Shown here: positions 28,985 through 48,394 of the stretch, piece by piece
How the letters are laid out: each line of letters begins with the position of its first letter
Position numbering within the stretch: the stretch's first letter is position 1
Source: Microcaldota archaeon
GTDB lineage: Archaea; Micrarchaeota; Micrarchaeia; Micrarchaeales; Micrarchaeaceae
DNA length: 64,000 bases
Reading direction: 5' to 3'
Assembly: GCA_021799635.1 (NCBI GenBank)
Contig: JAJZAB010000001.1
Span: forward strand, 346,505-410,504
Translations under genes and position numbers: made by a program
The notes under the pieces: generated by a model
What the model saw: the letters and a program-made list of their open reading frames with translations, nothing else
Told to the model about the DNA's origin: nothing
Databases searched by the model: none

Positions 28985-28996
28985 TATAGAACACCG

Positions 28997-29713: not shown

Positions 29714-30757
29714 ATGGACCTTCTGGACAGCGCGCTGAACTCTACTCAGGGCAACGATGATTTTTTCAAAGCCAGAATAGCGGTGTGCGGAGTTGGAGGC
29801 GGGGGCAGCAATACCATACAGCGGCTCAGCAGAATTGGAGTAAGGGGCGCCACGCTCATAGCCATAAACACCGATGGGAAGCACCTCAGCACCATGGATT
29901 CTAATGTGAGGAAGGTGCTGATAGGAGGTCCGTTGACAAGGGGCCTTGGAGCGGGAGGCTTTCCGGAAATAGCAAACAAAGCGGCCCAGTACTCAAGAGG
30001 AGAGATAGAGGGGCTGCTGCAGGACTACAATCTTGTGTTCATAACCGCAGGCATGGGCGGCGGCACAGGCACCGGGGCTTCTCCCATTGTAGCCGAGATT
30101 GCAAAGAGCAACGGGGCGATAGTTATAGGGATAGTAACGTTCCCATTTTCTTTGGAAAGGGTAAGGATAGATGTAGCCAGGAAGGGAATAGACAGCCTCA
30201 GGAGGAATCTGGACACCCTGATAATTATAGATAACCAGAAGCTTGTGGATCTGTATCCAAATCTTGCGCTGGAGCAGGCCTTCAAGGTAGCAGACGAAGT
30301 CGCGTCGCGCGCTGTGCGCGGCATAACGGAAACCATAAACACCCCAAGCCTGATAAACCTAGACTTCTCCGATGTAAGGTCGATAATGAACAACGGCGGC
30401 ATAGCCATGATAAGCGTTGGGGAAGGAAAAGGGGAAAGCAAGGTCGACGAGGTAGTCGAGGACACGCTAAGGAACAAGCTGCTCGATGTTGATTACGATG
30501 GTGCAACTGGTGTGCTTATACATATAACCGGCGGGGAGGACATGACCCTGGGCGAGGCCAACGAAATAGGCAGGAAACTCACCGAGATGACAGCACCCAA
30601 CGCCAACGTGCTGTGGGGTGCAAGGATAGATCCCGCATACAACGGCAAGGTGGAGGCCATCGCCATATTTACAGGAATAAAGAGCGCTTCCATAATAGGC
30701 AAGGGTGAAAGCGACCAATACAGGGGCGGCTCTGACTTAGACATGGGTAGCCTCTGA
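29714..30757 (+). CDS. ftsZ: Cell division protein FtsZ (paralog A)
   Basis: 347 residues. GTP-binding tubulin fold: VGGGGSNTI, INTDGKHL, the tubulin signature GGGTGTG (115-121), the FPFSLERVR segment and the T7 catalytic loop NLDFSDVRSIM. The gene is complete. The short linker ends in GSDLDMGSL; the SDL element recurs in both other FtsZ copies of the window. It polymerises on GTP to form the division ring. TATA-like aatatatttata (about 29670-29682) precedes it. It stands alone, divergent from L10e and convergent with rad50. Confidence 0.96.
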   Translation: MDLLDSALNSTQGNDDFFKARIAVCGVGGGGSNTIQRLSRIGVRGATLIAINTDGKHLSTMDSNVRKVLIGGPLTRGLGAGGFPEIANKAAQYSRGEIEGLLQDYNLVFITAGMGGGTGTGASPIVAEIAKSNGAIVIGIVTFPFSLERVRIDVARKGIDSLRRNLDTLIIIDNQKLVDLYPNLALEQAFKVADEVASRAVRGITETINTPSLINLDFSDVRSIMNNGGIAMISVGEGKGESKVDEVVEDTLRNKLLDVDYDGATGVLIHITGGEDMTLGEANEIGRKLTEMTAPNANVLWGARIDPAYNGKVEAIAIFTGIKSASIIGKGESDQYRGGSDLDMGSL

Positions 30758-30835
30758 AGGACTAATCATAAATTCTCGCAAGCAGCTTTATAATCCAGCC
30801 GAATGGATTGGGCTGCAGCAATTTTGAACGTCTGG

Positions 30836-33139
30836 CTAGACCTGGCTTGCTATTGTAGAGCCTCCTGCAGATTTGTCCCTGTCGAGCTGGTATATTCTGG
30901 CTGATGATATCTGCTTAAGGCTGTCGTCGTGCGTTATTATGAATATCTGCTCCACAACCTTTGGCAGGGCGTCGCTTAGCACGCCTATCAGCCTTGAGAT
31001 GCCGTTTGAATCTACGTTGTGCGTAGGCTCATCCAGTATCAGCCATTTCAGGTTCGGCACTATGACCATTGCAAGGGATATGCGCATGGAAAGGCAGGCT
31101 ATATTCCTTTCCCCCCCGCTAGCTACAGAGTCTATCTGCACCCATTCCTCACTGCTGCCGTCGCCAACGTCAGCTTCAAGCATGTAGTCGTCGGGTTTTG
31201 CGCTGAGCCTTATCCTCTGGTAATCAGAGTACGGATAGAGCTCGGGCCACATCCCCTGCATCAGTCCATTTATGGATTCGACAAGCCTGTTCCTAAGGAA
31301 AGCCTCTGTCTCCACCAGCGCCGACTTAAACTTTGCCATTTCTGATATGTAACCAACCTTCCTGTCTATGCTTTGCCTCATCTCCTTTACGCTGTCTATC
31401 TGTTTAACCACGTCTTCTATCTGCGCTGCGATTCTCTCAATGTACCTCTTTCCAGCCTCTATCTTCGCGCTAATGTCGCTAACCAGTGCTCTCTGCGCTG
31501 CGTAGGAGCCGTTAAGCGCTTCTATCATCTTCTTGTCAACATCGATGGCGTCGAACTCCTCGCTTCTCTTTTTCAGCTCTTCAGAAAGCTTCATTATATC
31601 GGAAGCATACCTCCTCTTCCTTTCCAGCGCCTCGGCTTCGTTTTTCGCCTTTCTCACTGCCTCTCTCAGAACCTCAATGTTCCTTGATGCTTTCTCCATA
31701 TTCGAAACTACGCCTTTGTAGCTTAGAGAGGCCTTCTCGAGTTTTTCCCTGTTTTCCCCAATTGTCTTATCAACGCCCTCATAGTCTTTCAGCTTGCTTT
31801 TGGCCAATATAAACTCATTGTACTGCAGGGTCGTGTCGTTTATCGCCTTCCTAACATCAGATATCTCCCTATCGATATCAGCCACCTTCCTGCCAAGCGC
31901 TTCCATTTCTTTAGATTTACTCTCAAGCAGCCTGGATCTCATAGCCTCATCAAGCTCCCTCTCGCAAACTGGGCACCTGCTCATGTGCTTCGCCAGCTCC
32001 CCGAGCGACCTCCCAAGCTCCTCCGCCCTTCCAGCAGCCGATGCCCTTGAGTTTATGAGAGCGTTCATCTCTACGTTCCTTTTATCCAGCTCCTTCGCGA
32101 AAACCACTTCGCTGCCATTTTTCACTATATCAAGCAGCCTGTCCCGCTCAGGCAGCATCCTATCAGCCTGGGCGAGCGCAGCCCTAGCTTCAGACATATC
32201 CCTCAGGAGCCCGCCCTCAATTTTTTTAAGCTCCTCAAAAAGCATCACAGACTTCTTCTCCTGGTCCACCAGCCTGTCCAGCTCCGCCTTAAGCTTCGCC
32301 TCGTCCGGCTCCCCAACCACAATCCTCCCCATCTCGCTTTCTATCGCCTTCATCCTGCCATTTATATCAATTATCGCCTTCCCGAGCCGATCCTTCTTAT
32401 CACTCATGGAATTCAGTCTGCCAATCTCCTTCTTCATAGCTTCAAGCTTGGGCTTCTCCTCGGCCTCCCTGGACTCCAGCGCCTTGTTCTCGTCAAACAC
32501 CGCCTTCCTTTCAGAAGAAAGCTTCTCAAGCTGCCTTCCCATAGCCTCTGTGTCCATCCTGCCAACTACGGCCTCCTCATCAGCCACGATCTCCCTAATC
32601 CTGTTTATCAGCGAGGTGCAGTTCTCCTCAGCCGTAGTGAAGCTGTCCAGCCCCAGCATGCTGTCTATCTGCCTCTTCCTCTCGCTTTTTGTTATGGTGA
32701 GGAAGTAATCTAGGCCATTCTGCTCAGAATATACCGCCCTGGAGAATGTCTCATAGTCTATCTTCAGCAGCGATGATATCTCTTCATTTACTCTGATCGG
32801 CTGTGCCTGAAGGTAGGCGCCGTTGCGCTCCAGCCTTGCCGTTGTATTACCTGATGCGCCGAGCTTCCTAGTTACAACGTAGGTGTCAGCTCCTACGTCA
32901 AATGAGAGCCTGACCGTCGCCTCTTCCTCTCTTGAGGGCCTGCTCTTTATCAGGCCTTCGAGCTTCACCCTCTTCCTGCTGAGCGCCGGGAAGGTGCCGA
33001 ACAGGGCAAACGATATCGCATCAACCACAGAGCTTTTTCCTGCTCCCATTATACCTATGAGCAGATTTACCCCTTTCTGGAATTCAAGCCTAGTGCTGCC
33101 GTGCGTCTTCCAGTTGTATAGCTCAATGCTTTTTATCAT
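30836..33139 (-). CDS. rad50: DNA double-strand break repair ATPase Rad50
   Basis: 767 residues from the ATG at 33139 (the frame continues to 33211, but a minus-strand TATA-like tatttatatat near 33165-33180 favours this start). Walker A GIMGAGKSS (about 28-36), long antiparallel coiled coil, zinc hook CPVC (about 388-391), ABC signature SGGERN (about 675) and Walker B WLILDEPTHNVD (about 698). Together with Mre11 it tethers and processes DNA ends. It is somewhat shorter than typical archaeal Rad50 because of shorter coils. Mre11 is usually adjacent but is absent here. Confidence 0.95.
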   Translation of the reverse strand: MIKSIELYNWKTHGSTRLEFQKGVNLLIGIMGAGKSSVVDAISFALFGTFPALSRKRVKLEGLIKSRPSREEEATVRLSFDVGADTYVVTRKLGASGNTTARLERNGAYLQAQPIRVNEEISSLLKIDYETFSRAVYSEQNGLDYFLTITKSERKRQIDSMLGLDSFTTAEENCTSLINRIREIVADEEAVVGRMDTEAMGRQLEKLSSERKAVFDENKALESREAEEKPKLEAMKKEIGRLNSMSDKKDRLGKAIIDINGRMKAIESEMGRIVVGEPDEAKLKAELDRLVDQEKKSVMLFEELKKIEGGLLRDMSEARAALAQADRMLPERDRLLDIVKNGSEVVFAKELDKRNVEMNALINSRASAAGRAEELGRSLGELAKHMSRCPVCERELDEAMRSRLLESKSKEMEALGRKVADIDREISDVRKAINDTTLQYNEFILAKSKLKDYEGVDKTIGENREKLEKASLSYKGVVSNMEKASRNIEVLREAVRKAKNEAEALERKRRYASDIMKLSEELKKRSEEFDAIDVDKKMIEALNGSYAAQRALVSDISAKIEAGKRYIERIAAQIEDVVKQIDSVKEMRQSIDRKVGYISEMAKFKSALVETEAFLRNRLVESINGLMQGMWPELYPYSDYQRIRLSAKPDDYMLEADVGDGSSEEWVQIDSVASGGERNIACLSMRISLAMVIVPNLKWLILDEPTHNVDSNGISRLIGVLSDALPKVVEQIFIITHDDSLKQISSARIYQLDRDKSAGGSTIASQV

Positions 33140-33369
33140 AAAACCAGGCAGAAGATTATGGATTTTGATATATAAATATTTATGGCGCGCTGCCGCCAAG
33201 AAGATAATCAAAAATTGGCACCCGACCCCAACACGAACCGTCCGAAGCTGTCAATCTGCAGGCCAGCTCTTCAGGCCTCCAATCAGCAACCCGCGTAGCA
33301 ATTGCAGATTAATCTTATTTGGATTGGCAGGGCCGCAGGAGAAGGCGCACTCCAGATTGGAATCTTCAT

Positions 33370-33618
33370 TCATATCAGGCTTTCTTCCTCTACCTCGACC
33401 TCGCTTACCCCTTCCACAGCTTTTATATTCTCTTCTATCTTCGATGAGCTGGTTTCAGAGTCGTCGAATACGAAACGCACCTTGACAACCTTTATGCCGA
33501 ATGCAACCTCCTCCGACTGCATCGCCGCCGGCTTCAGCTTTTCATTAACTTTTTTCATTACCTGCTCGAGCTTTCCGTCATCCGGATATACCTTGAATAT
33601 AACTGCGACTTTTGGCAT
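33370..33618 (-). CDS. ef1b: Elongation factor 1-beta (aEF1B)
   Basis: 82 residues, the single C-terminal guanine-exchange domain of aEF1-beta: MPKVAVIFKVYPD at the start, AFGIKVVKVRFVF in the middle (family: FGLKALK) and a C-terminal VEGVSEVEVEEESLI. It exchanges GDP for GTP on EF1A. Its ATG overlaps the stop of the upstream zinc-protein gene (TGATG), so the pair is co-translated, the arrangement usual in archaea. Confidence 0.93.
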   Translation of the reverse strand: MPKVAVIFKVYPDDGKLEQVMKKVNEKLKPAAMQSEEVAFGIKVVKVRFVFDDSETSSSKIEENIKAVEGVSEVEVEEESLI

Positions 33619-33785
33619 CAAGGTCCCTCAAAATTGCACTCGCTGCATCTGTATGTGTTTGTTATCTCTCTGCAGTGGTAGCATCGTATTATCTGCCCCT
33701 TCCCGCAGCGCGGACACTTGAATTCTGTATATTCATGAGTAAGCCTGCCGCACGAAACGCACACCTTGCCTGGTAAAACCGCCAT
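33618..33785 (-). CDS. Small zinc-finger protein (HVO_2753 type) upstream of EF1-beta
   Basis: 55 residues on the minus strand: MAVLPGKVCVSCGRL, then FKCPRCGKG, RCYHCRE and YRCSECNFEGP. Four CxxC knuckles form two zinc-binding ribbons. Such small proteins (DUF1610-related) nearly always precede aEF1-beta in archaea. The function is unknown; RNA or ribosome binding is the common guess. ATG at 33785, stop overlapping the EF1-beta start. Confidence 0.88.
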   Translation of the reverse strand: MAVLPGKVCVSCGRLTHEYTEFKCPRCGKGQIIRCYHCREITNTYRCSECNFEGP

Positions 33786-33848
33786 TTAAAACACCAAGAA
33801 TCCGAGGATATCTGTAGATTACACCTTTGTACAAAAACTAATATAAGA

Positions 33849-35699
33849 CTATCTATTTGCCCTCCTCTGTCCCCTGCTCCCGCCCCCCTTCATCCTTGAC
33901 AGTATAGTAAATAGCATAATCAGTATTATCAGGTCCAGTATGAGGATTATCCCAAGTACAAGCCAGATCATCGCTATAGTCGAAGTCGCGGTAAAGCTGA
34001 ATACGTTGGTTGTGGCCGCTGTGCTTGGCAGCTGCACAACAGTTGTGCTGGGCGCCCCCTGCACGAGGTTTTTGTATATGTTGTAAGTGTCGTTGCTAAT
34101 CTGCTGCGCGAGCAGGGCGGATGAGATGGCCTGGAAGGCGTAGGAGTGCGCCGTGGTCGCATTGGTCGCTGTGCTGGATTCCCTTATGTAGAACTGTGAC
34201 TCTTCGGCAAACTGGGTAGACCAGACGCCGTAGGTGGAGTTGACTGAAATTGACATCGCCATCGCATCAAGCTGCGCAGTAGACATGTTAGCATAGTTCG
34301 AAGACGCAGGTATCGCGTATGCGTAGTCAGCGTCTATGATCGCCAGAGGGTAGTTGCGGCTGGCGTAAGCTTCCTCAGCAGTGGCGTAGTAGAGGCTCTG
34401 CCCGAACTGCGCAGCCCTGGCTATCCTCGCCGAAGCGAGGGTGCTGAGCCCAGAGCCCGTGAACACGGTTGGTCCGCTCATGTTCGACGCCATGCCGTAC
34501 ATGAAGCTGGCAGCCTTGCACCAGCCTATGCCTTCCGCGCCGCTGTATAGGGCGTCAAGAACTTCATCAGTATCCAGCGCGCTGGTATTCTGCGAATATG
34601 CGCTTACTACAGATGATATGGTGTACGAGCCCCAAGCCTGCCTGAGTTCACCTGCTATCACCCATTCGTAGTTGCTTTCTGTCAGCTGGGGTGCGCTTAG
34701 GGACTCGCAGTACGCGGACGCGTTCTGCAGCGTCGCCAGCCCGCCTCTCCGCGTCGCATCGCTGCTCGCAAAATAGTATGCATTGATGTAGTCCAGGAAG
34801 CCTATGTCGGCTGCCGCGTAGAAGTATCCGCGAGAAGCTATCTGCCTGCTCTCGTTGATCACGCTGGACAGCTGACGCGTCACGTTGCCGAACCCAGGCT
34901 GTGTTATTGAGTCTATCTCGTATTGCGAGGTGTTGAGCGTAAAGTTTGCGAGCCTTGAGAACGCCGATACGGAGCAGTTGTTTGAGCAGCTGAGGTTTGC
35001 GTATGGCAGCGCTCCTGGGTTGTAATCGGTGTAAAAATTATAGTAAGTTTCATCTCCGCTGACTGACACGTTGTTGAAGGCATAGTATGCCTCCTGGCTT
35101 ATGTTTGCTACCTGTACCAGCGGTATGCCAAAATTCTGCTGCACTAGGTAGTAGAGCTCGTTCTCCTGGCTGCTGGCCGGCACTGCAGGGACCATTATGA
35201 ACTCCATGCCATTCAGCTTTGCAGCGTCCGCCTTGTCGTAGACCCCGCCTATAACGCCTATCGTCCCATTGCTGCTTATAGTGCCTGTCATGGTGAAATC
35301 AGACCTGAGGCGCCTTCCTGAGAGCGCAGATATGGCCAGCATTGTCATCGCAGCACCGGCGCTCGGCCCCGATACACTCTGGTTATTGTCAGATATAGTG
35401 TATGTAAAGTTGTAGTTGCTGTAGTTCAGCCCCAAATACTGCGTTGCGTACATAACTGCGGCCTGCGCAGAATCGAACGTGCTATTTCCAACGCTGCTCG
35501 GACCGTTTATAGCCACATATCCATCGCCGCTGGTGACCACAAGGGTGAAGGTTGTAAGGCTGCCAGAGTTGTTTGAAAGTATGACTGCTGGTGCGCGTAT
35601 GGTCGCAGTTCCTACCACCTGCGCTCCGAAAGCAGGATTAACCATGAGCGACATTGCGAGCGCTATCCCCATTAAGCAATAAATATTGAACCTTTGCAT
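33849..35699 (-). CDS. Secreted Lon-type (S16) serine protease
   Basis: 616 residues from the ATG at 35699. It has a cleavable-looking signal (MNPAFGAQ end near residue 26), an S16 protease domain (about 30-200) and a C-terminal membrane anchor followed by a basic tail (SRMKGGGSRGQRRANR). The catalytic Ser in SGPSAGAAM (Ser113) and Lys in YDKADAAK (Lys156) are 43 residues apart, as in Lon. No AAA+ domain exists, so it should cleave extracellularly without ATP, like other archaeal COG1750 proteins. The long middle part is helical and unrecognised. A presenilin-type protease gene lies upstream (41 bp). Confidence 0.88.
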   Translation of the reverse strand: MQRFNIYCLMGIALAMSLMVNPAFGAQVVGTATIRAPAVILSNNSGSLTTFTLVVTSGDGYVAINGPSSVGNSTFDSAQAAVMYATQYLGLNYSNYNFTYTISDNNQSVSGPSAGAAMTMLAISALSGRRLRSDFTMTGTISSNGTIGVIGGVYDKADAAKLNGMEFIMVPAVPASSQENELYYLVQQNFGIPLVQVANISQEAYYAFNNVSVSGDETYYNFYTDYNPGALPYANLSCSNNCSVSAFSRLANFTLNTSQYEIDSITQPGFGNVTRQLSSVINESRQIASRGYFYAAADIGFLDYINAYYFASSDATRRGGLATLQNASAYCESLSAPQLTESNYEWVIAGELRQAWGSYTISSVVSAYSQNTSALDTDEVLDALYSGAEGIGWCKAASFMYGMASNMSGPTVFTGSGLSTLASARIARAAQFGQSLYYATAEEAYASRNYPLAIIDADYAYAIPASSNYANMSTAQLDAMAMSISVNSTYGVWSTQFAEESQFYIRESSTATNATTAHSYAFQAISSALLAQQISNDTYNIYKNLVQGAPSTTVVQLPSTAATTNVFSFTATSTIAMIWLVLGIILILDLIILIMLFTILSRMKGGGSRGQRRANR

Positions 35700-35758
35700 A
35701 AGACCAGCGCTATACAATCCGAATCAACTTATAAAAACCTTGTTTTTTATTTCTGTTT

Positions 35759-36751
35759 TTACAGCTTTACAAAATTGAAAAGCACCGCGTACGCCGAAAC
35801 GGCGACCACAATGCCGAAGAACAACGGAGGTATGGCTGGCAGGGCCCTCTTGTACTTCCTCAGTATGGAGGTCGTTATAACCAGACCAAGCAGCGATCCA
35901 GCTATTATGAAAAAGCTAAGCATAAAATTCAGGCTGACCTTGTAAGCCGCCACCGCCACCATAAGCGGCGCCACCATGTCTCCGGTCCCGAGCTCTATCC
36001 GCGCAGCTATAGGCACCAGGCTCTCTTTGTAGAGCTTTGAGAAGATAGGGTTGACCTTCTCCACCGCCTTCCTGTCCTTCTCGTACTCGGCTACATCACC
36101 TCTGCTCAATTTGCTTTTCGGCACCGCCTCAACCTCATTTACTCCTATAAGGAACGCCAGGTTCCTGCCAGACATAGCCCTGGCCATGCTAACCATGTGC
36201 TTTGTCACGAAGACCGCGATGAAATCGTACACTGCAAGTATGGCCATAAAGATTATGGCTGCAAAGAAACCGAAGCTAAGACCCAGCACCACGCCAACTC
36301 CAACGCTGGCCAGCATGGCAACGGCGTTTCTGAGCTTCTGCCACTTATTCTTAAGCACCACTATCGCGAGCGCCAGCACCACCCCAGCTATCAAGTTCGT
36401 AGTTATCTGGTTGCCGAAAATAGTGAATACGACGGAGCTGTTCACAATCGCAAACAATATGTAAAATACGAAAAAGGAGGATATGAAGATCACCGCACCT
36501 TCAAGTATTATGAAGAATTTGTCACCCTTGTATATTTTTAGCAACAGCAGCATTACGGCAGTAAGGACGATTATGTAAGCCACGAGAAGGATGGCGCCAG
36601 ACGCCGATGAAATCACCTGCACGCTCTGCACCTGAGAATATGTCGCTCCAGAGAAGACCTGCGTGGCGATGAAGAGGCCGAAGAACTGGACTATCATAAA
36701 CATTACAAGTATCTGCAAAGTCTGCCTTGTCTCTATTACGCGCAACGGCAA
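35759..36751 (-). CDS. Presenilin/signal-peptide-peptidase family intramembrane aspartyl protease
   Basis: 330 residues, about nine membrane segments. The catalytic aspartates are in LAVYDFIAV (Asp176) and LGTGDMV (Asp258, the GxGD motif), and the C-terminal PAIPPL corresponds to the PAL motif. It cleaves membrane helices. The start is a TTG at 36751, 10 bp after the mcm stop; a later ATG (MFMIVQ) would cut into the first helix. Position next to a secreted S16 protease suggests shared processing of membrane or signal peptides, an inference from context. Confidence 0.9.
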   Translation of the reverse strand: MPLRVIETRQTLQILVMFMIVQFFGLFIATQVFSGATYSQVQSVQVISSASGAILLVAYIIVLTAVMLLLLKIYKGDKFFIILEGAVIFISSFFVFYILFAIVNSSVVFTIFGNQITTNLIAGVVLALAIVVLKNKWQKLRNAVAMLASVGVGVVLGLSFGFFAAIIFMAILAVYDFIAVFVTKHMVSMARAMSGRNLAFLIGVNEVEAVPKSKLSRGDVAEYEKDRKAVEKVNPIFSKLYKESLVPIAARIELGTGDMVAPLMVAVAAYKVSLNFMLSFFIIAGSLLGLVITTSILRKYKRALPAIPPLFFGIVVAVSAYAVLFNFVKL

Positions 36752-36761
36752 AATATCCCTT

Positions 36762-38825
36762 CTACTCGTTTTCGTGCCTTATGGTCTTCACAATGCCCTG
36801 GTGCGGCCTGAATATATCCCCTATCTTCTCGAGCTCCACGATGTACCTGTTAACCGTGGCGATGTCTATGCTGTTTTTCTCGGCTTCCTCCACAACGCGC
36901 TGCATCTTCGCGCTGCCCTCGCTCTCCTCCAACCTCTTTATTATGTTAAGTATTATGTTCATCCTGTCAACTTTCTCTCTTGGCATCCCTGTAGATATTA
37001 TGTCTATGTCAAACCTGCCGCCGCTGTCCACAGCCAGCGTCTTCAGCATGAACTCGTTGAGCATTATGGCATTATCTGCATCTGGAATCTCAACTATCTT
37101 AGAAAGCCTGACCTTCGCGCTCGCCTCTGCCATCCTAACAAGGCCTTCTATCTGCCTTGGAGTTATTGGCACGGCGCCCCTCTTCGCCCCCATCTTCCTA
37201 AGCTCTATATAATACTCCTGTATCCTTTTGGAAGCCTCTGGAGTAAGCATCGGGTAGATGTTCTTTCTGGCGTATGCTATGTATTTCCTGAGCAGCTCTC
37301 CGTCTATCGGTGGTTTCTCAACCTGCTCGTACCCTTCCATCTCAAGTATCTGCGCCCCAGCGGCCTCGTGCTGCGTTAGTATGTGTTTTGCTATACTCTT
37401 ATCAAGCTCTTCGTCAAGTATATCTCTTATCGGGAATATAAGGTCAAACCTCGAGAGCAGGGTCGGCGGTATGTCAAACTGGTCTGCGGGGTACATGTTC
37501 TGGTCAAACCTGCCGAATTTCGGATTTGCAGCTGCCAGGACCGCAGCCCTGGCGTTGAAGGTCGCTATTATGCCAGCTTTGGCTACGCTTATGGTCTGCG
37601 ATTCAAGCGCTTCGTGCAGCGCGGCCCTGTCGTCTTCTCCTACCTTATCAAACTCGTCTATCGCCACCACCCCCCCGCTGCCGAGCACCAGGGCGCCGGC
37701 CTTAAGAGTCCATCCGCCCTCTGAGAACTCGTCCCTCTCAGCCACAGCTGTCATCCCGCCCCCAGTTATAGACTTCCCGCTTACATATATTCCCTTGGGC
37801 ACAAGCTTGGTAACAGACTGCAATATCCTTGTCTTTGCGCTCCCCGGGTCGCCTATCAGCAGGATGTGCATGTCTGACCTTATGAGGCCGCCATCTATGA
37901 GGGTCTTTCCAGGAGTCCCGCCGAAAAGCTGGAGCGCCACCGCCCTCTTTATTTCATCATATCCGTATATTGACGGTGCAATGGATTTTGCTATTTTCTT
38001 GAATATTTCCTGGTCCTTGCCAAGTTCCTTTATTACCCTCTCCTCATCTTCGCTTATCTGGAGCTCGGCAAACTCCTTCTGTTTTGGTATAACCGATATG
38101 GTGTCCAGGAACATCGTGTAGATGTCGTGATCAAGCTTTCCCCTGGCGTTCCGGCGAGGCCTTATCCTAAGTATGCCGGTGAGCTCTATCCTGTCCCCAG
38201 GTATTACTGTATTTACCAGGTCGTCCTCTATCCACACCTCAAGCTGCCACGTCGGCGAACTGCCGCGCAGCCGTTCAAGAGGATCCTGCACTGCTATCTT
38301 CTGAAGATTTATGAACTGCGATTCTTCAGCAACCTGCCTGAGAGACCTCCTCTTGCACTGCAGGCATATGTCCGGAAGGTCGTCCTTCCCTGCCCTTATC
38401 TTGTAAGTGGCGCCGCAGTAGGTGCATTTGTATGAACCTACCTTAACCTTTGGATTTATCTCCGATCTTTTAACAATAAGGCTATCAAGCATTATCATCT
38501 TGCTTATGTAAGAAGAGCCGACGTCCTGGACCAATGGTGTATTTACGTTTTGGCCGAAGAATCTAACGTGTATTTCCCCACTGCCAAGCTCTATGGTTCC
38601 CATCCTACCAACGAGCGATTCTGTCGCAGCTTCAACTATATGGTCAGGCTGCTCAACCAGTGCCTCAGCCAGCTCCGGGTCAAACTTAGCCAGGTCTTTG
38701 AAATCCACGAGCAGGCTTCTCTTCTCTGGGAATTGTATGGCCAGGGAGTTTATCCGGTCGGCGTAGTGCCTGTCAAAGAATTCGTCAAACTTTGATTTTA
38801 TCAGCTCTTTGTCAGCGTCGGCCAT
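36762..38825 (-). CDS. mcm: Replicative helicase MCM
   Basis: 687 residues. N-terminal domain with a zinc site CTYC (134-137) and CLQC (154-157), AAA+ core with Walker A GDPGSAKT (325-332), Walker B VVAIDEFD (387-393), the arginine finger SRFDLIF, and a C-terminal winged helix. It unwinds DNA at forks after loading by Orc1/Cdc6. Single copy in the window. The membrane protease gene follows directly on the same strand. Confidence 0.96.
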   Translation of the reverse strand: MADADKELIKSKFDEFFDRHYADRINSLAIQFPEKRSLLVDFKDLAKFDPELAEALVEQPDHIVEAATESLVGRMGTIELGSGEIHVRFFGQNVNTPLVQDVGSSYISKMIMLDSLIVKRSEINPKVKVGSYKCTYCGATYKIRAGKDDLPDICLQCKRRSLRQVAEESQFINLQKIAVQDPLERLRGSSPTWQLEVWIEDDLVNTVIPGDRIELTGILRIRPRRNARGKLDHDIYTMFLDTISVIPKQKEFAELQISEDEERVIKELGKDQEIFKKIAKSIAPSIYGYDEIKRAVALQLFGGTPGKTLIDGGLIRSDMHILLIGDPGSAKTRILQSVTKLVPKGIYVSGKSITGGGMTAVAERDEFSEGGWTLKAGALVLGSGGVVAIDEFDKVGEDDRAALHEALESQTISVAKAGIIATFNARAAVLAAANPKFGRFDQNMYPADQFDIPPTLLSRFDLIFPIRDILDEELDKSIAKHILTQHEAAGAQILEMEGYEQVEKPPIDGELLRKYIAYARKNIYPMLTPEASKRIQEYYIELRKMGAKRGAVPITPRQIEGLVRMAEASAKVRLSKIVEIPDADNAIMLNEFMLKTLAVDSGGRFDIDIISTGMPREKVDRMNIILNIIKRLEESEGSAKMQRVVEEAEKNSIDIATVNRYIVELEKIGDIFRPHQGIVKTIRHENE

Positions 38826-38963
38826 TTTATCCCACAGAGCACTAGTAAATATATATTATTTAGCAGGGCAAATTAATTATATTGGTTGTTTTAAGATTGA
38901 CAGAGTGTTATTTCTAGGCACATTTTTTATATTGTCTAGTAAAAGGCTTTTAGTGGCATATAC

Positions 38964-40613
38964 ATGGAAAAGATAATAGTTACGGCCGCGCTGCCGTACT
39001 CGTACTCGATACCCCACCTGGGCAACTTCGTCGGCTCAGTCCTGCCTGCCGACGTTTACTACAAATATCTCAGGATGAAGGGTGCCGATGCAATATTCAT
39101 ATGCGGCTCAGACCAGCACGGCACCTCAGGAGAGCTGAAGGCCATGAAGGAAGGGAAGGACCCGGAGGAGCTTTCTAACGAGATGCACGCCAAGCTGAAG
39201 AAGCTCTTCGATAGCTACGAGTGCTCGTTCACTTTCTATGGAAAGACCCACACGCCGGAGAACAGGGATACAGTCTACGAATTCTTCAATTCGCTCAACA
39301 AAAACGGCTACATAGGCGAAACAGAGAGTGAAATGCCATACTGCAATGTAGACAACATGATCCTGGCTGATTCCTTCATAGAAGGGACGTGCCCGTTCTG
39401 CTCCTATACAAAAGCGAAGGGCAACCAGTGCGAAAATTGCGGCAGGCTGTTAGACCCAGCGCAGCTGGTGGAGCCAAGGTGCACAATTTGCCACAAGTAT
39501 GATATCACATTCAAGAAGGTCAAGAACCTCGCCCTTCTTCTTGACAAGCTGCAGGATGAGATAGAGCGCTTCATAAAGGAAAGGTCAAAGAACCACTGGA
39601 GCAAGTCGGCTAAGAACAAGGCGCTCAGCTACATAAAAGAGGGCCTGAAGCCGAGGGACATAACTAGGAAAACAAGGTGGGGCTTTCCTGTCCCGCTCAA
39701 GGGCTTCGAGGACACAAAGCTGTACGTCTGGTTTGACGCTCCAATAGGATATATAGGCATAACCAAGGAATGGGACAACAACAGGTGGAGGGAATACTGG
39801 TTGGGCAAGGACACAAAGCTGATACAATTCATGGGCAAAGACAATATAGAGTTCCATGCTCTTGTGTGGCCGGGCATGCTGATCGGATCGGCTCTCGGGT
39901 TTCCGCTTCCGTACACCATAAAGGCGTCGGAGTACCTTCTTGACCACGGCTTGAAATTCTCAAAGAGTTCGGCAACAGGCCTAGACATGCAGGCCGCCCT
40001 TGGAATCCTGGAGCCGGACTACTGGAGGTTCGCGCTAATCAGCCTGTATCCGGAAACCGCAGATACGGAGTTCTCCACAGAAACAATGTTCAGCATAGTA
40101 AACGGAGTTATGAACGACAACATCGGGAACTTTGTCAACAGGGCGCTGAGCATGGCAAAGAGGGATGCGCCAAGGCGGCAATTGAGAATTGCAATCGAGG
40201 ACGGGTACAGGAAAGAGGCCGAGAATATAATAAAAGAATATATCTCAAATTTCGAGAGCCTGAATCTGAGGGAGGCAATGCGCTGCGTGGTGGCGCTGTC
40301 AACCCTCGGAAACTCAATAATAGGCAACAAGCAGCCCTGGCTGCTATCGAAGAAGGCTGGGAGCGACGCCGACGCTGCCGAGGAGCTAAATAGGGTGCTT
40401 GGCACCGTAGTTTGCCTGGTATACAAGGTAGGAATACTCATATGGCCTTTCGCTCCAGGTGCAAGCGGAAAGATTCTAAGTTATTTCAAGGTGAATTCGG
40501 AGCCTAGGATGGACATGTTAGATCAGGAACCAAAGCTCGACACAAGCAAAGAGGTGAAACCGATATTCACCAAATTGCCTGAGTCCTTCGCAGAACACAT
40601 AACTAAGGGGTAG
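38964..40613 (+). CDS. metG: Methionyl-tRNA synthetase, catalytic subunit
   Basis: 549 residues. Class I motifs PHLGN (replacing HIGH) near residue 19 and KFSKS near 335, with a CP1 zinc region of paired knuckles (CPFCSYTKAKGNQCENCG and CTICHK). The anticodon domain is present, but the C-terminal tRNA-binding (EMAP/Trbp111-like) domain is not: the protein ends soon after the anticodon bundle. That domain is encoded separately at 40735-41061 on the other strand. TATA-like ttttttata lies about 45 bp before the ATG. Confidence 0.95.
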   Translation: MEKIIVTAALPYSYSIPHLGNFVGSVLPADVYYKYLRMKGADAIFICGSDQHGTSGELKAMKEGKDPEELSNEMHAKLKKLFDSYECSFTFYGKTHTPENRDTVYEFFNSLNKNGYIGETESEMPYCNVDNMILADSFIEGTCPFCSYTKAKGNQCENCGRLLDPAQLVEPRCTICHKYDITFKKVKNLALLLDKLQDEIERFIKERSKNHWSKSAKNKALSYIKEGLKPRDITRKTRWGFPVPLKGFEDTKLYVWFDAPIGYIGITKEWDNNRWREYWLGKDTKLIQFMGKDNIEFHALVWPGMLIGSALGFPLPYTIKASEYLLDHGLKFSKSSATGLDMQAALGILEPDYWRFALISLYPETADTEFSTETMFSIVNGVMNDNIGNFVNRALSMAKRDAPRRQLRIAIEDGYRKEAENIIKEYISNFESLNLREAMRCVVALSTLGNSIIGNKQPWLLSKKAGSDADAAEELNRVLGTVVCLVYKVGILIWPFAPGASGKILSYFKVNSEPRMDMLDQEPKLDTSKEVKPIFTKLPESFAEHITKG

Positions 40614-40734
40614 TGCTGTAAAAAATCCTGCCTATTTTGCCTCACCACCGCGCAGCGTCGCCAACTCCCCCCATCCAAAACGCGTATTTCCGTCTATTAG
40701 CCTGCTGCAATATGGTTTGTTTTTTGTTGCGGTA

Positions 40735-41061
40735 TCATCTCACTCTGCTTCCAATTTCAACCTCCTTATCTACCTGCAGCAGCGCCACGTTTTTTACGTC
40801 TTCAGCCGCGAGAAGCATGCCTTCAGAGATGTAGCCCGCGATACTCTTGGATTCCAGGTTCACTACCGCTACCACATTCTTGCCCAGCAATTCCTCGCGC
40901 GTGTAGTGATCTTTAATTCCAGCGGCTATGTTCTTCACACCAATCTCCTTCCCGAAGTCTACTTTCAGTCCATACATGGGCTTTCTGGAATTGAGTTCTT
41001 GGGCATCAACTATCCTACCTACCCTAATGTCAATAGCAGCAAACTCTTCTATAGTTACCAT
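40735..41061 (-). CDS. metG2: MetRS beta subunit / tRNA-binding OB-fold protein
   Basis: 108 residues: IDIRVGRIVDA, GLKVDFG, NIAAGIKDHY, GKNVVAVVNLESKSIAGYISEGMLLAA are the Trbp111/EMAP-II fold signatures. In many organisms this is the C-terminal domain of MetRS; here it is a separate chain. It would dimerise and add non-specific tRNA affinity. ATG 41061 (MVTIEEF) chosen; an upstream in-frame start adds three residues. It is convergent with metG. Confidence 0.9.
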   Translation of the reverse strand: MVTIEEFAAIDIRVGRIVDAQELNSRKPMYGLKVDFGKEIGVKNIAAGIKDHYTREELLGKNVVAVVNLESKSIAGYISEGMLLAAEDVKNVALLQVDKEVEIGSRVR

Positions 41062-41163
41062 AATGCTCACCAGAAGAAACTGTCAAATAACAAGAGTAGT
41101 TGGCATTTGCAGATATAAATACGTTTTGAGCCTGGCCATGCTCCGCAATTGAAATCAGCAGCA

Positions 41164-41835
41164 TCAATCTCCAAAATAATCATTCCCATCCTTGCCGGCT
41201 TTTGCATCCTGGTTGGCCCAGAGGCACAGCGTAGCTACGGAACAGTACGGATGCCATTTCTTTGAGAGCAATTCCACTCTTTTTCTGTCAGGTATGGTTC
41301 GCAGCCGGTAAACCTTTTGTATAGCCTTCCTTATCCCAAGATCGTCTGCCGGCATAACATCAGGCCTGCCGAGGCAGAATATAAGGAACATCTCTGCAGT
41401 CCATCTGCCTATGCCACGGACCCGACTTAGGCTTTTTATAACCTCATCGTCCCCCATTTTCTCCAGCGCCTCAAGCTCAAGCACCCCCCTTTCCATCATC
41501 TCACACAGGTCTTTGATGTATGAATATTTCTGCGGGGATATTCCAGCTCCCCTAACTACCTTTTCATCTGTGTGCAGAAATTCCGGCGGTTTTGGTATCC
41601 TTCCTCCGTATATATTTTTGAATCTCCCCAGTATTGCCCTTGCAGCATTTCCTGCAAGCTGCTGAAAAATAATTGATTCGATAAGTGCTCCGTAGTAATC
41701 AGCGTCAAGTTCTATCTTTTTGTAGTCCGCGGCGTCCAGCACCTTCGCCAACCTCCGATCATTCCGTCTCAGGTAGGCCACGCCTCTTCTCCACAGCTTT
41801 TCATTCTCCAGAGTATAGGAGTTCCTTCCAGCCAT
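41164..41835 (-). CDS. DNA-3-methyladenine glycosylase II-like (HhH-GPD)
   Basis: 223 residues. Helix-hairpin-helix RVRGIGRWTAEMFLIF (139-153) and the following PADDLGIR (Asp165 the likely catalytic Asp) identify the HhH-GPD superfamily, AlkA branch. No C-terminal FeS cysteine cluster, in agreement with AlkA rather than Nth/MutY. It would remove alkylated purines in base excision repair. Single gene. Confidence 0.88.
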   Translation of the reverse strand: MAGRNSYTLENEKLWRRGVAYLRRNDRRLAKVLDAADYKKIELDADYYGALIESIIFQQLAGNAARAILGRFKNIYGGRIPKPPEFLHTDEKVVRGAGISPQKYSYIKDLCEMMERGVLELEALEKMGDDEVIKSLSRVRGIGRWTAEMFLIFCLGRPDVMPADDLGIRKAIQKVYRLRTIPDRKRVELLSKKWHPYCSVATLCLWANQDAKAGKDGNDYFGD

Positions 41836-42020
41836 AAGAAATTAATCTGTAAAATCATTATAAATACATTATCAAGTCTCTAGCACTGGCTTGCATTTTG
41901 CAGACAAAACAAAATGCAACCCAGGGACTAAAAATCCCTAGGAATTAGTGGAATTATTGGACAAAACCCACGTGCCGTAACATATTAATATCTCAATATG
42001 CAATAAATACACTGATCAAA

Positions 42021-42548
42021 ATGTACGCGCAGAAAGAATTTGGGAATGACAAATCTTTAAGGTCATTTGAATATATGCTCAACAACAGAATTCCCGCAGA
42101 CTACTATACAGTAATAGTTGAAGTGTCAAAAGTTGAAATGAGGCGCACCAAGGCAATAAGCAGCAAGCCTCGCGACTACCTGAAGCTGGACGTGCCCCTG
42201 GATTATATGACACAACCAATATTTATCCATACCGCTTCTCCGACAGAGCTTAAGATTCGGCACAAATCAAGTACGCCTGGAGTGTATGGAGAGAATGAAA
42301 GAAACGAGAAAAGGCTGTACGAGCTCTATGAAAAAATAAGAAGTGAGATAGATAGGTACGGGAAATGCAAGGTAAAGATACCAGTCTCATGGAAGTTTAG
42401 GCGCCACATATCTGACATAACCGGACCACAGGATCCCTTCCTGGTGCACACTCTACGCGACGGTGAAAACCAACCAGAGGTGTTGGAGCGGCCGCGCGAC
42501 AGGACTGTACAACTCAACCTGCTCGCCTTTGAGCGCACCGACAAGTAA
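42021..42548 (+). CDS. Hypothetical protein
   Basis: 175 residues, soluble and basic, with no recognised family. The central part (YYTVIVEVSKVEMRRT, YLKLDVPLDYM, FIHTASPTELKIRH) is beta-rich; the C-terminal half holds a helix of about 25 residues (RNEKRLYELYEKIRSEIDRYG) and ends Arg-rich (VLERPRDRTVQLNL). A near-leaderless start is possible: an AT-rich box (tattaatatctcaatatg) lies 20-40 bp upstream. S8e follows in the same direction 150 bp later. Confidence 0.6.
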   Translation: MYAQKEFGNDKSLRSFEYMLNNRIPADYYTVIVEVSKVEMRRTKAISSKPRDYLKLDVPLDYMTQPIFIHTASPTELKIRHKSSTPGVYGENERNEKRLYELYEKIRSEIDRYGKCKVKIPVSWKFRRHISDITGPQDPFLVHTLRDGENQPEVLERPRDRTVQLNLLAFERTDK

Positions 42549-42696
42549 CGGTGCAGGGATACTGCGCATGAAAAGGAAAAACCAAGTCTTTCCATGCTGC
42601 GACCGCCAGGACAGCAACCTATAAATAGTTTTAATACAGTCTTTATCTGCAAATTTAAGAAACAATTTTCCTGTGCAATTCAAATTAAGTGATATC

Positions 42697-43095
42697 ATGA
42701 GCCAATTCAGCATGCAGCTGCACTCAAAATCCCCAACAAAGGGATCAGGCAACGGCAAGAGGAGGATAAAGGCAAGGGATAAAAAGAAGAGTGAGATTGG
42801 AAACTATTTCTCATCTACAAAAATGGCGGAAAATAACCAAACAAGGATGATGAGGAGGAGGGGAGGCGCACGCACTCCGGTACTAAAAAATGCCGGTTAT
42901 GTAAACCTACTTACAAAAGATGGATACAAAAAGGTAAAGATAAAAGGTGTGCTAGAATCTAGGGACAACAGGAACTTTGCAAGGCAGAACATAATAACGA
43001 AAGGCACGGTAATAAATACTGAAATTGGTAAGGCCGAGGTCATAAACAGGCCAGGAAGGGAAGGCAGCATAAACGCAAGGCTGATAGGGTCCTGA
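42697..43095 (+). CDS. rps8e: Small ribosomal subunit protein S8e
   Basis: 132 residues. KSPTKGSGNGKRRIKARDKKKSEIG opens the protein, followed by RRRGGARTPVLKNAGYVNLLTKDGYKKVKIKGVLESRDNRNFARQNIITKGTVI, characteristic of S8e; the C-terminal RPGREGSINARLI completes it. The start at ATG 42697 is chosen over an earlier GTG at 42673. The next gene starts 2 bp after the stop. Confidence 0.92.
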   Translation: MSQFSMQLHSKSPTKGSGNGKRRIKARDKKKSEIGNYFSSTKMAENNQTRMMRRRGGARTPVLKNAGYVNLLTKDGYKKVKIKGVLESRDNRNFARQNIITKGTVINTEIGKAEVINRPGREGSINARLIGS

Positions 43096-43096
43096 C

Positions 43097-43474
43097 ATGC
43101 CGGTGCTGGTTTTTGAATGCGACTCTTCAGAGTCAGACGCGCTAAAGAAAGCCCTAGAATACGATCCGTATCTTGACAAGGAGACTAGCCCAGAGGAGCT
43201 GAAAAGGATTGCGGGAGACAAGAGTGCAAACATAATATTTGCAAGACAAGCGTATGATCTGAGAAATGGGGCTTCTTTCGGCCTTGACCCTAAAAAATAC
43301 TATCTCTATATAAAGGCGAGCGAGGAGTTTTTAAGGGCCGCGGAAGAAAAGCTAAAAAAGAATTTCAAAACAGTAAAGGTTGCCACCAAGGAAGAAGAGC
43401 GGAAGGTGGTGGATAAGATAGATGATGAAGAGAGCAGGGTTAATTCAAGCATAGGAGCGATATTTGGTGGTTGA
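43097..43474 (+). CDS. Hypothetical protein between S8e and argF
   Basis: 125 residues, charged, without cysteine pairs or membrane segments. It reads like a small alpha/beta domain: VLVFECDSS, KKALEYDPYLD, NIIFARQAYDLRN, KKYYLYIKAS, then a helix and an acidic/basic tail. I do not recognise the family. It sits in a tight run with rps8e (1-bp gap) and argF (0-bp gap), so it is probably expressed with ribosomal protein S8e. Confidence 0.7.
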   Translation: MPVLVFECDSSESDALKKALEYDPYLDKETSPEELKRIAGDKSANIIFARQAYDLRNGASFGLDPKKYYLYIKASEEFLRAAEEKLKKNFKTVKVATKEEERKVVDKIDDEESRVNSSIGAIFGG

Positions 43475-44371
43475 TTGAACTTTATCAGCTCTGATGATTT
43501 TTCAAAGGAGCAGATTGGTCACATATTCAAAATATCGGATGACATAAAGGACAATAAGCAGGAGGCGTCGATAAGGGAGCACTCCACCATGGCGCTCATT
43601 TTTGAGAAACCATCAACAAGGACAAGACTTTCTTTTGCAGTTGCCATGGCGCAGCTTGGAGGCGTAGCCATATACATAGACGCGCTCACGTCGCAACTGT
43701 CAAGAGGGGAAAGTATAGCCGATACGGCCAGGGTTATAGGGGGATATTGTGATTTCATCGCCGCGCGGCTTTACAGACATGCTGATATAGTTGAGCTGGC
43801 GTCCGCCTCTCCGGTGCCGGTAATAAACGCGCTCACAGACCTCGAGCATCCGACGCAGGCGCTTGCTGATATATACACGATTATGCAGCATTTCGACAGC
43901 GTAAAGGGGCTGAAGATCGCCTTTTTGGGCGACGTTGCTTCTAACACGGCAAATTCGCTCATGCTTACTGGGGCAAAGCTTGGCGCCGAAATAGCTCTGA
44001 TAGGGCCAGCAGGCTACCAACCGAACAGCGTTTATTTTAACCGCGCAAGGGAGTACAGCAAGGTGCACCTATACTCCTCGATTAGCGAGGGACTGGAAGA
44101 CTCCCAAATAGTTTATACTGATACATTCGTGAGTATGGGCCAAGAGGCGGAAGCGGATAAAAGAAAAAAACTTTTCAGCCAGTACCAACTCAACTCCAAA
44201 GCCCTATCGTACGCCTCAGAAAAAGCGCTAGTTATGCACTGCCTTCCAGCGCACAGGGGTGAAGAGATAACCGCGGACGTAATCGACGGCACAAGGAGCA
44301 TAGTATGGGAACAGGCGAAAAACAAGCTTCTGATAAACAAGGCGATAATACTTTACCTGTCTGAAATGTGA
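43475..44371 (+). CDS. argF: Ornithine carbamoyltransferase
   Basis: 298 residues. The carbamoyl-phosphate loop STRTR (47-51), HPTQ (125-128), an ornithine-loop-like VSMGQE and the late HCLPAHRG give OTC rather than aspartate carbamoyltransferase. It makes citrulline from ornithine and carbamoyl phosphate. The start is a TTG straight after the upstream stop. No other arginine-pathway gene is in the window, so the protein may act in arginine fermentation or in a patchy pathway. Confidence 0.92.
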   Translation: MNFISSDDFSKEQIGHIFKISDDIKDNKQEASIREHSTMALIFEKPSTRTRLSFAVAMAQLGGVAIYIDALTSQLSRGESIADTARVIGGYCDFIAARLYRHADIVELASASPVPVINALTDLEHPTQALADIYTIMQHFDSVKGLKIAFLGDVASNTANSLMLTGAKLGAEIALIGPAGYQPNSVYFNRAREYSKVHLYSSISEGLEDSQIVYTDTFVSMGQEAEADKRKKLFSQYQLNSKALSYASEKALVMHCLPAHRGEEITADVIDGTRSIVWEQAKNKLLINKAIILYLSEM

Positions 44372-44443
44372 GACTGGATGCCAGCCCCGCACACGCCGCG
44401 CATAAGTAGATAAATATTTATTATTAGTTGGGTAAGTAATACT

Positions 44444-45112
44444 ATGGACCTTCTTGCAAAAGTCGCAATAGTCACCATTCTGATAATAGTTGTGCTTGGA
44501 GTCGGATTTATAACTTTCAAATACGCAGCAAAAGGCCCAGGTACCGTTACTGCCACGCAGGCTGGCCAGGTTGTCACCAGGGACCTGAAACTTCAATACC
44601 CGAACGCCAGCATAGACCTAATAAACATAACAAAATCCAATCTTACCAATGACAGCTGGAATGTATTCGTGAGTGTGGTCTTCAACTCAACAAGGCCGTG
44701 CCCAACAGTATACCTTCTCGATTCAGATTACCCTGCAACTGAACTTGTGCTGAGCGTCGCAAACCTGTATACTAGCAAGTGCGAAGGGCTCAGCAATGCA
44801 AAGCAGGACCTTCCGTTCTACACATACATAGTTACTAATCCTGAGATAGCCATAGCCCAGTCATACAACATCTCGGAAAGCGGCGCCTATCCTGGAATAG
44901 TCGATTATGTCAATGGCAACGGCGGCTACAACAACACAGTCGTCAATGCAACCAGATACCAGTCCCTGAACAGCACGATAAAGCCTTTCATAACAAAACA
45001 GTACTACAACGTATGGCTCATAAACTATACCGCGAAGTACGCACAGTATTCCTACATTGTCATCATGAACACCAGCGGTGTTATACTCGGCAACTACACA
45101 GTGCCAAAGTGA
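44444..45112 (+). CDS. Membrane-anchored secreted protein, unknown
   Basis: 222 residues: one N-terminal membrane segment (6-27) followed by an exported domain rich in Asn/Ser/Thr and aromatic residues, with many N-glycosylation sequons and two Cys. No family recognised. It precedes two ftsZ genes on the same strand, separated by a 219-bp AT-rich gap. A link to cell division or surface assembly is possible but rests on position alone. Confidence 0.7.
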   Translation: MDLLAKVAIVTILIIVVLGVGFITFKYAAKGPGTVTATQAGQVVTRDLKLQYPNASIDLINITKSNLTNDSWNVFVSVVFNSTRPCPTVYLLDSDYPATELVLSVANLYTSKCEGLSNAKQDLPFYTYIVTNPEIAIAQSYNISESGAYPGIVDYVNGNGGYNNTVVNATRYQSLNSTIKPFITKQYYNVWLINYTAKYAQYSYIVIMNTSGVILGNYTVPK

Positions 45113-45331
45113 GCGCGCACCTTGGACTCTGCCGATTTCTTTCTGAAGGTCCGCAGCCAAAATCAACTACATATATATTAAAGTAAAAAATATTATACAT
45201 TAATAAATAAAAATTGTAATCTGCAATGCAAAAATCAGCGGCAAAAATAACAGTTTTCCAGAACTACTACTATCAAATCAAAAAGCACAAGGCTTTTAAA
45301 ACTTTTGAGTAAAACGTAATCAGGCGATAAT

Positions 45332-46399
45332 ATGAGCGACCTTGTCAACGACCTATTGGGTCAACCAAGAGAGAGCAACAGCAACGTGAGTGCTGAAGAC
45401 TTTAGTTCTACACAGATAAAGATTGTTACTGCAGGTTTCGGCGGTGCAGGCTGCAACATTGTAAACAGACTGCTTAAGGCTGGCGTTAAAGGAACTGATT
45501 TTGTAGCGGTCAACACGGACGCGCAGCACTTCAAGATAATAGATGAAAAAATAAAGAAGATACTGATAGGCAGGAACCTGACAAGAGGGCTGGGAGCTGG
45601 AGGCGATCCGGCTACTGGCGCAAAGGCGGCAGAAGTAGACAGGAACCTGATTGAGGAGGCCTTCAACGGCACGCAGCTAGTTTTCCTATGCGGCGGAATG
45701 GGCGGCGGCACAGGAACAGGGTCAATGCCGGTTGCAGCGCAGGTGGCTAAGGAGCAGGGAGCCATAGTCGTTGCCATGGTTACGTACCCGTTCGACCTTG
45801 AGAGGATAAGGAAGAAGAAAGCCGAAGAGGGAATACAGACGTTGAGGAAATACTGCGACAGCGTGATAATACTGGATAACAACAGGCTTGTCAAGCTGGT
45901 GCCCAACCTTCCAATGAACGAGGCATTCGCACTAGCGGATTCGGTTCTGGCAAAGGCTATAGGCGGACTTGTATGGACAATAACGCAGCCGAGCATGATA
46001 AACATAGATTTCGCTGACGTAAGGAGCATAATGGTCGGCGGAGGAGTAGGATTTATAGCAGTCGGCACTGGAAAAGGCACAGACAAGGTAACATCTGCTG
46101 CCGAGGGCGTGCTGAAGAACAAGCTACTTGACGTTGATTTTGAGGGAGCATCAGGAGCGCTGGTTCACATATCCGGAGGTTCATCGCTTACTATAGGAGA
46201 CGCGATAAAGGCAGGGGAAATAATAACAGATAGGATGGATCAGAAGGCAAACGTCAAGTGGGGTGCCAGGATTATACCAGGATACGAAGACCAGTTGGAG
46301 ATAGTGGCCATAGTCACAGGAGTAAGAGGAGCAAGCATAGTTGGAAGACTGGAGGAGAAGCGCCAGGAACCGTATTCAGATCTGGAAATGATAGGCTAA
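45332..46399 (+). CDS. ftsZ: Cell division protein FtsZ (paralog B)
   Basis: 355 residues. FGGAGCNIVNRLL, the GGGTGTG signature (124-130), FPYPFDLERIR-type segment (VTYPFDLERIR), T7 loop NIDFADVRSIM; full-length. N-terminal tail of about 28 residues, then the core. It ends EPYSDLEMIG. A gcttttaaaac TATA-like box (about 45290-45300) lies some 30-40 bp before the ATG. Paralog C starts 23 bp after the stop, so the two are co-transcribed. Confidence 0.96.
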   Translation: MSDLVNDLLGQPRESNSNVSAEDFSSTQIKIVTAGFGGAGCNIVNRLLKAGVKGTDFVAVNTDAQHFKIIDEKIKKILIGRNLTRGLGAGGDPATGAKAAEVDRNLIEEAFNGTQLVFLCGGMGGGTGTGSMPVAAQVAKEQGAIVVAMVTYPFDLERIRKKKAEEGIQTLRKYCDSVIILDNNRLVKLVPNLPMNEAFALADSVLAKAIGGLVWTITQPSMINIDFADVRSIMVGGGVGFIAVGTGKGTDKVTSAAEGVLKNKLLDVDFEGASGALVHISGGSSLTIGDAIKAGEIITDRMDQKANVKWGARIIPGYEDQLEIVAIVTGVRGASIVGRLEEKRQEPYSDLEMIG

Positions 46400-46422
46400 C
46401 CACATTTATATTTGGTGGTTTA

Positions 46423-47436
46423 ATGATAACGGACGTACTAAACGAGGAATTTGTAGCGAAGCTTGCTGTGGTAGGAGTAGGAGGCCAGGGCTGCAATCTT
46501 GTGAACAGGCTTTATACGCAGGGCATAAAGAGTGCAAGGACCATGCTGATCAACACAGACGCAAAGCACCTAAGCATAGTCAACGCTGATAAAAAGATCC
46601 TGATAGGCAAGAACATAACTCATGGACTTGGAGCAGGCGGCTTCCCAGAAGTAGCTGAGAAGTGTGCCGATGCAAGCAGGGGAGAGCTGTCCAGCATGCT
46701 TGATGGTTATGACATGGTATTCATAGCTGCAGGAATGGGCGGCGGCACAGGAGGAGGCGCAGCGCCTGTCGTGGCAGACATAGCCAAGGAGCAGGGAGCC
46801 CTTGTTGTGAGCTTTGTCACATATCCGTTTGCAATAGAGAGGAGCAGAAAGAGCAAGGCAGATTGGTCCCTCCAGCAGCTAAGCAGGAGCTCTGATACAA
46901 CCATAGTCATAGAGAACGACAGGCTGATGAGCTATGCGCCCAACCTTCCAATGGAAAGGGCGTTCGAGCTTATAGACAACATAGCAGTAAACGCCGTAAA
47001 GGGCATAGCAGACACCATTATGCTTCCAAGCCTGATAAACCTGGACTTTGCAGATGTAAGGGCTGTGATGAAGGATGCGGGCACAGCAGTGATAAACCTC
47101 GGTGCAGGATCTGGGCATGATAAGATAGAGAAATCAATAAAGACCACGCTGCAGCACCCCCTTATGAACGTAGACCTTTCTGGAGCCAAAAGCGCAATGG
47201 TCCACGTTTCCGGAGGATCAGCCCTGACAATAGAGGAGGCCACCAGGGTAGGAGAGGGGGTCACCGAAGGGCTTGATGCAAAGGCAAACGTGATATTCGG
47301 AGCTAGGATGATACCGGAGCTTTCGGACCAGATACGCGTAATGTCCATAATAACAGGGGTAACGCCCAGGCTTGGCCAGGGAATGAGGGCGCAGTCCGAA
47401 AGAATATCAGACCTCAGCATAGAGAGCATATACTAA
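46423..47436 (+). CDS. ftsZ: FtsZ-family protein with altered signature (paralog C)
   Basis: 337 residues from the ATG at 46423; the frame's earlier starts lie inside paralog B. VGVGGQGCNLVNRL and INTDAKHL are normal, but the tubulin signature reads GGGTGGG (106-112) instead of GGGTGTG. The T7 loop NLDFADVRAVM is kept. The C-terminus ends ISDLSIESIY. An SD-like GGTGG lies 6 bp before the ATG. GTP binding is probably retained, but the altered loop that contacts GTP phosphates may change hydrolysis. It may be a co-polymer with B rather than a stand-alone ring former. Confidence 0.92.
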   Translation: MITDVLNEEFVAKLAVVGVGGQGCNLVNRLYTQGIKSARTMLINTDAKHLSIVNADKKILIGKNITHGLGAGGFPEVAEKCADASRGELSSMLDGYDMVFIAAGMGGGTGGGAAPVVADIAKEQGALVVSFVTYPFAIERSRKSKADWSLQQLSRSSDTTIVIENDRLMSYAPNLPMERAFELIDNIAVNAVKGIADTIMLPSLINLDFADVRAVMKDAGTAVINLGAGSGHDKIEKSIKTTLQHPLMNVDLSGAKSAMVHVSGGSALTIEEATRVGEGVTEGLDAKANVIFGARMIPELSDQIRVMSIITGVTPRLGQGMRAQSERISDLSIESIY

Positions 47437-48062: not shown

Positions 48063-48064
48063 GA

Positions 48065-48394
48065 ATGGAGATAAAAATAACGAAGGATTCGAGCAACAAG
48101 GTCACTGAGGCGAGGGAGATCGAGTTTGTGGTGGTGCAGGAAGGCAGCACCTACTCAAGAGAGGAGATAAAGATGGAGCTGTGCAAGAAGCTAAGCCTAG
48201 ACCCCGAAAGCACCATAGTGACCAGGATAAGCCAGAGGTTTGGGGTAAGGCAGAGCACGTGCAGCGCCCACGTATACAAATCAAAGGAGGCGCTGGCCAC
48301 GCACGAGCCCAAGCACATAGTAGAAAGGCTATCCAAGGGCAAGGACAAGCCAGCCGCAGATGCGGCAGGAAAGGAGGAAGCCAAAAAGGAATGA
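48065..48394 (+). CDS. rps24e: Small ribosomal subunit protein S24e
   Basis: 109 residues: [61 protein letters not shown] is the S24e signature. The charged Lys/Ala C-terminal tail is disordered. It lies between aIF5A and S27Ae; in archaea S24e-S27Ae frequently follow rpoE1/spt4, which here are 3 kb downstream. Confidence 0.93.

Follow-up and report, generated by a model that had tools for sequence, protein, structure and literature searches.

Most archaea carry one or two FtsZs (reviews PMC7617429, PMC12583498), and the accessible text of Pende et al. (PMC8178401) reports that some archaea have two or more copies of each FtsZ class. SepF binds FtsZ2 and not FtsZ1, both in Haloferax (PMC8187382) and in Odinarchaeota (PMC12583498). 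A position of the FtsZ2 of Micrarchaeota near Euryarchaeota has also been noted (Santana-Molina et al., PMC9871819). Extra archaeal FtsZ copies are already known from surveys. In the published text that was accessible, neither a triplication of FtsZ2 in Micrarchaeota, nor the gene pair B-C treated below, nor the combination of one FtsZ1 with three FtsZ2s was found described; a mention in a figure or table is possible.

The present study concerns a stretch of 64,000 nucleotides (the window) in a genome of Candidatus Micrarchaeota (749 kb in 4 contigs, 88% complete). The following features of the window are considered here.

29714 to 30757, plus strand: FtsZ2 paralog A, 347 aa, a lone gene (PF00091 and PF12327; TIGR00065 370.7 bits; clade A support 99/80 and 98/92)
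45332 to 46399, plus strand: FtsZ2 paralog B, 355 aa, first gene of the B-C pair (TIGR00065 358.3 bits; clade B support 100/100)
45974 to 45976, plus strand: Trp215 codon of B, H7 interdomain cleft (Mj 224, equivalent to E. coli E198 and S. aureus D199)
46423 to 47436, plus strand: FtsZ2 paralog C, 337 aa, 23 nt after B (TIGR00065 371.1 bits; clade C support 100/96, replicate 83/57)
47658 to 48062, plus strand: aIF5A, between C and sepF (PF21485/PF01287; synteny kept in 14/19 genomes of the order, 0/22 outside)
48065 to 48394, plus strand: ribosomal protein S24e (PF01282)
48490 to 49260, plus strand: Rce1-like CAAX protease, between C and sepF (PF02517; kept in 14/19 genomes of the order)
49285 to 50007, plus strand: SpoU-family rRNA methylase (PF00588)
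50015 to 50395, minus strand: SepF, 126 aa, convergent with B-C, the sole SepF of the genome (PF04472 42.7 bits, above cut-off)

Profile searches gave 136-152 bits for PF00091 and 82-103 bits for PF12327 with A, B and C, and in the NCBIfam comparison, which covered these three proteins, all scored 358-371 bits against the TIGR00065 FtsZ equivalog, over its cut-off of 295 bits. A preliminary description of this DNA had counted three full-length FtsZs. A, B and C do lie where it placed them, but the count was short, since a whole-genome search revealed a fourth FtsZ, D, on contig C4 (about 196999-198087, ~150 kb from the window), which exceeds the PF00091 cut-off and takes an FtsZ1 position in the tree. 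A total of three is thereby ruled out. The SepF that had been put at 50015 is indeed a PF04472 protein, but it is read from 50395 to 50015, and its being the only SepF is borne out by the profile search of the genome. For C the ORF caller chose GTG 46258 as the start, which lies within B. The alternative, ATG 46423, is favoured by orthologs of the order with comparably short N-termini, and GGTGGT, which resembles a ribosome site, stands immediately 5' of it. The AlphaFold model of C has a pLDDT of 83 and M. jannaschii FtsZ as its best PDB match (TM 0.88). All ftsZ loci of this genome adjoin translation-factor genes: A lies next to a diphthamide synthesis gene and L10e (window 28037-29539), B-C next to aIF5A and S24e (window 47658-48394), and D next to genes for deoxyhypusine synthase, L7Ae and EF-2 (L034:7559-13894).

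The relationships of these proteins were studied in two trees, a main IQ-TREE mixture-model tree of 91 proteins with named anchors including CetZ, and a replicate built from other genomes, from which CetZ and bacteria were left out. The FtsZs of 42 genomes fall into four groups, corresponding to A, B, C and D. A, B and C together form one clade, restricted to Micrarchaeota, inside FtsZ2 (100/99, replicate 100/98), where they share a clade with the FtsZ2 of Euryarchaeota and Halobacteriota, and D groups with the FtsZ1 anchors in both trees. Each of the three is a separate group across related genomes, a result that the preliminary description had named as support in the case of C or A, although clade C alone was less firmly supported in the replicate. 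All three proteins of the window are therefore FtsZ2, and the FtsZ1 of the genome is D, outside the window. CetZ forms a separate long branch in the 91-protein tree, which rules out a CetZ identity for A, B and C. The T5 loop agrees with this division. One residue (Mj 166) is deleted from it in 100% of the FtsZ2 anchors and of A, B and C, whereas the deletion has a frequency of 0% among the FtsZ1 anchors and D; Ser at Mj 230, an FtsZ2 signature, is also found in A, B and C. In the replicate, midpoint rooting placed the Aenigmatarchaeal FtsZ2 with FtsZ1. Its position varies with the root, and this placement is a rooting matter. The branching order within the clade was (C,(A,B)) in one tree (94/82) and (A,(B,C)) in the other (83/76), and AU tests of the A/B/C orders did not reject the alternatives. 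The paralogs are not recent near-identical copies, as their mean identity within one genome is 52-54%; these identities and the tree rule out a recent duplication. Every group reaches into the deepest families that were sampled, and the duplications are therefore older than the diversification of the sampled phylum.

The set analysed comprised 42 genomes of about 21 families, with sizes of 0.5-1.7 Mb. B, C and D were found in nearly all of them and A in 29, its absence from the other 13 extending to single-contig assemblies. This patchy absence is best read as loss. In a wider count among sampled genomes at least 90% complete, 58/93 had four tubulin-domain matches and 27/93 had three; the SepF was single in nearly all Micrarchaeota searched. 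By comparison, all 15 genomes of the phylum of Methanocaldococcus had two tubulin-domain matches, and Aenigmatarchaeota had two or three per genome. Micrarchaeota thus keep three to four FtsZs, although a loss of paralogs would be expected in reduced genomes. A few genomes depart from the common pattern. G064, of the same family and 93% complete, has just one tubulin-domain match, and G097 has two SepF matches over cut-off beside four FtsZs. Short FtsZ-like proteins were also seen in G032 (L064:6935-7624, 229 aa) and G150 (L148:6884-7564, 226 aa). They keep the GTPase half and end before the T7 loop and the C-terminal domain, and at 20-38% identity to A-C they are not obvious decayed copies; in that of G032, GGSVGTG replaces GGGTGTG.

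Our data favour, at a probability of roughly 55%, the reading in which an FtsZ1 (D) and an ancient, diverged set of FtsZ2s (A, B and C) share one SepF, B and C work together, and the window encodes the FtsZ2s of a division system that Micrarchaeota typically have. The preliminary description had suggested a sub-functionalised set. Conserved paralog-specific differences do point to diverged roles, but A is dispensable, being absent from almost a third of the genomes. These differences do not lie in the catalytic motifs, as the GTP-binding GGGTG[ST]G and the T7 NxDxxD are intact in A, B, C and D (a GGGTGGG variant occurs in 30% of C orthologs, that of the window among them), which rules out pseudogenes or inactive copies. 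They are seen in the C-terminal tails. The canonical GID tail, in FtsZ2 the peptide expected to serve SepF, is present in many FtsZ1/FtsZ2 anchors. Its strict form was found in 5% of B, 15% of A and 14% of C, with related paralog-specific peptides otherwise. D has a tail of the LDLD type. B ends in a [DGS][ILV][ED]-type peptide, typically SD[IL]Ex[IL]G, which matched 88% of B against 1% of shuffled sequences, a descriptive figure because the expressions were picked after the tails had been viewed. The tail of C is of a more variable type, and that of A is variable or missing, the motif having been lost in some. B is also the slowest-evolving of the four paralogs; the rates of C and A are about 1.9 times that of B. 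Rate covariation was stronger for A-C than for B-C; the pairs are non-independent, so this was not used as evidence.

The faster rates of C and A, their less conserved tails and the repeated loss of A would fit a different arrangement, in which D and B carry out division and C and A are cytoskeletal FtsZ2s serving cell shape or host-cell contact in the manner of CetZ, without necessarily contacting the division ring. We consider this unlikely, though it is the most credible of the alternatives. Both proteins have kept the FtsZ2-type GTPase and interface motifs, and C is present throughout the sample and lies almost always directly 3' of B, which is better explained by shared use of the two.

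The arrangement of B and C was compared across genomes. In 37 of them both genes lie on one strand, B first and C second, at a distance of 300 nt or less in all but one and often of mere tens of nucleotides; the two are separated in f7 genomes. The genes around the pair are common within the order and hardly ever recur outside it, which makes the conserved proximity of B and C conspicuous. Co-transcription of the two, as had been claimed for this window, is supported at the level of gene order by the 23-nt gap and the phylum-wide adjacency. The pairing suggests coordinated production and joint action, but it can also come from co-regulation without physical co-assembly. The linkage of SepF to B-C is mainly an order-level trait (13/19 genomes of the order). 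In one f13 genome (G086) a second SepF (L123:6523-6891) is followed after 13 nt by a second B (6905 onward), hinting that B is a client of SepF.

A second difference between the paralogs emerged from a scan of all alignment positions and had not been named beforehand. At Mj 224 the residue is aromatic in 42/42 B, Asp in 42/42 C, an acid in 28/29 A and Glu in 42/42 D. The FtsZ1 and FtsZ2 anchors have an acid in 38/38, and a text search of a wider anchor set returned acids only (85/85 matched). Alignment to S. aureus FtsZ, together with a review (PMC8456036), identified the position with E. coli E198 and S. aureus D199 in the interdomain cleft beside helix H7. B thus raises the question of the role of the H7-cleft acid, in a site of bacterial FtsZ inhibitors, which an aromatic residue has replaced throughout the sampled phylum.

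The contrasting states at Mj 224, together with an order and spacing conserved against scrambled synteny, could also be taken to mean that B and C depend on each other in an obligate heterotypic filament. This can be imagined with the aromatic residue of B as a wedge in the interdomain cleft biasing the assembly state and with D and A in distinct filaments, which we hold to be improbable, or as a tubulin-like polymer in which A is a partner added later or used alternatively. The latter is the favoured reading in a stronger version and appears quite improbable. The T7 loop and the GTP site are complete in both proteins, and neither is obviously an inactive partner. With the wedge version, a multi-component FtsZ ring would be a fixed trait of a whole phylum of minimal cells. 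That the copies are redundant, have the same job and persist by chance or for the sake of protein dosage, agrees with the retention of catalytic motifs in all four, but it is very improbable, because B and C are kept across about 21 families with small genomes and paralog-specific residues are fixed in them, neither of which is expected of redundancy.

Under the favoured reading, D would lay down or scaffold the ring, as FtsZ1 does in Haloferax, and SepF would tether the FtsZ2-type filaments through their C-terminal tails. This scheme is drawn by analogy with the binding of SepF to FtsZ2 and not to FtsZ1; the variability of the C and A tails, some of the latter lacking any motif, counts against the favoured reading. 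B and C would be made together and probably act together in or beside the same FtsZ2 filaments. The assembly behaviour of B may differ through the aromatic residue that replaces the acid of the H7 cleft, because drug binding to bacterial FtsZ indicates that this region affects assembly. A would have an accessory role and would have been lost more than once. A phylum of tiny genomes with up to four FtsZs and one known anchor suggests an unusually elaborate division machine in cells that are among the smallest known. Micrarchaeota therefore offer a natural test of why archaea have several FtsZs and of how one SepF serves several filaments.

The closest described system, FtsZ1/FtsZ2 with SepF in Haloferax volcanii and Odinarchaeota, resembles the Micrarchaeota set in having an FtsZ1, an FtsZ2 type and one SepF, and its FtsZ2 signature residues and T5 deletion are common to A, B and C. 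Micrarchaeota differ from it by three ancient FtsZ2s, by paralog-specific tails and by a B devoid of the H7-cleft acid. Aenigmatarchaeota can also have more than two FtsZs, but the two extra copies that were placed (G207, G228) are FtsZ1. CetZ likewise represents additional tubulin-family paralogs beside FtsZ1/FtsZ2; in contrast to it, A, B and C lie inside FtsZ2 and have the FtsZ_C domain. Paired tubulin-family filaments are formed by BtubA/BtubB and by plastid FtsZ1/FtsZ2, and B and C are like these in being two co-conserved paralogs that are likely made together, their co-assembly being putative.
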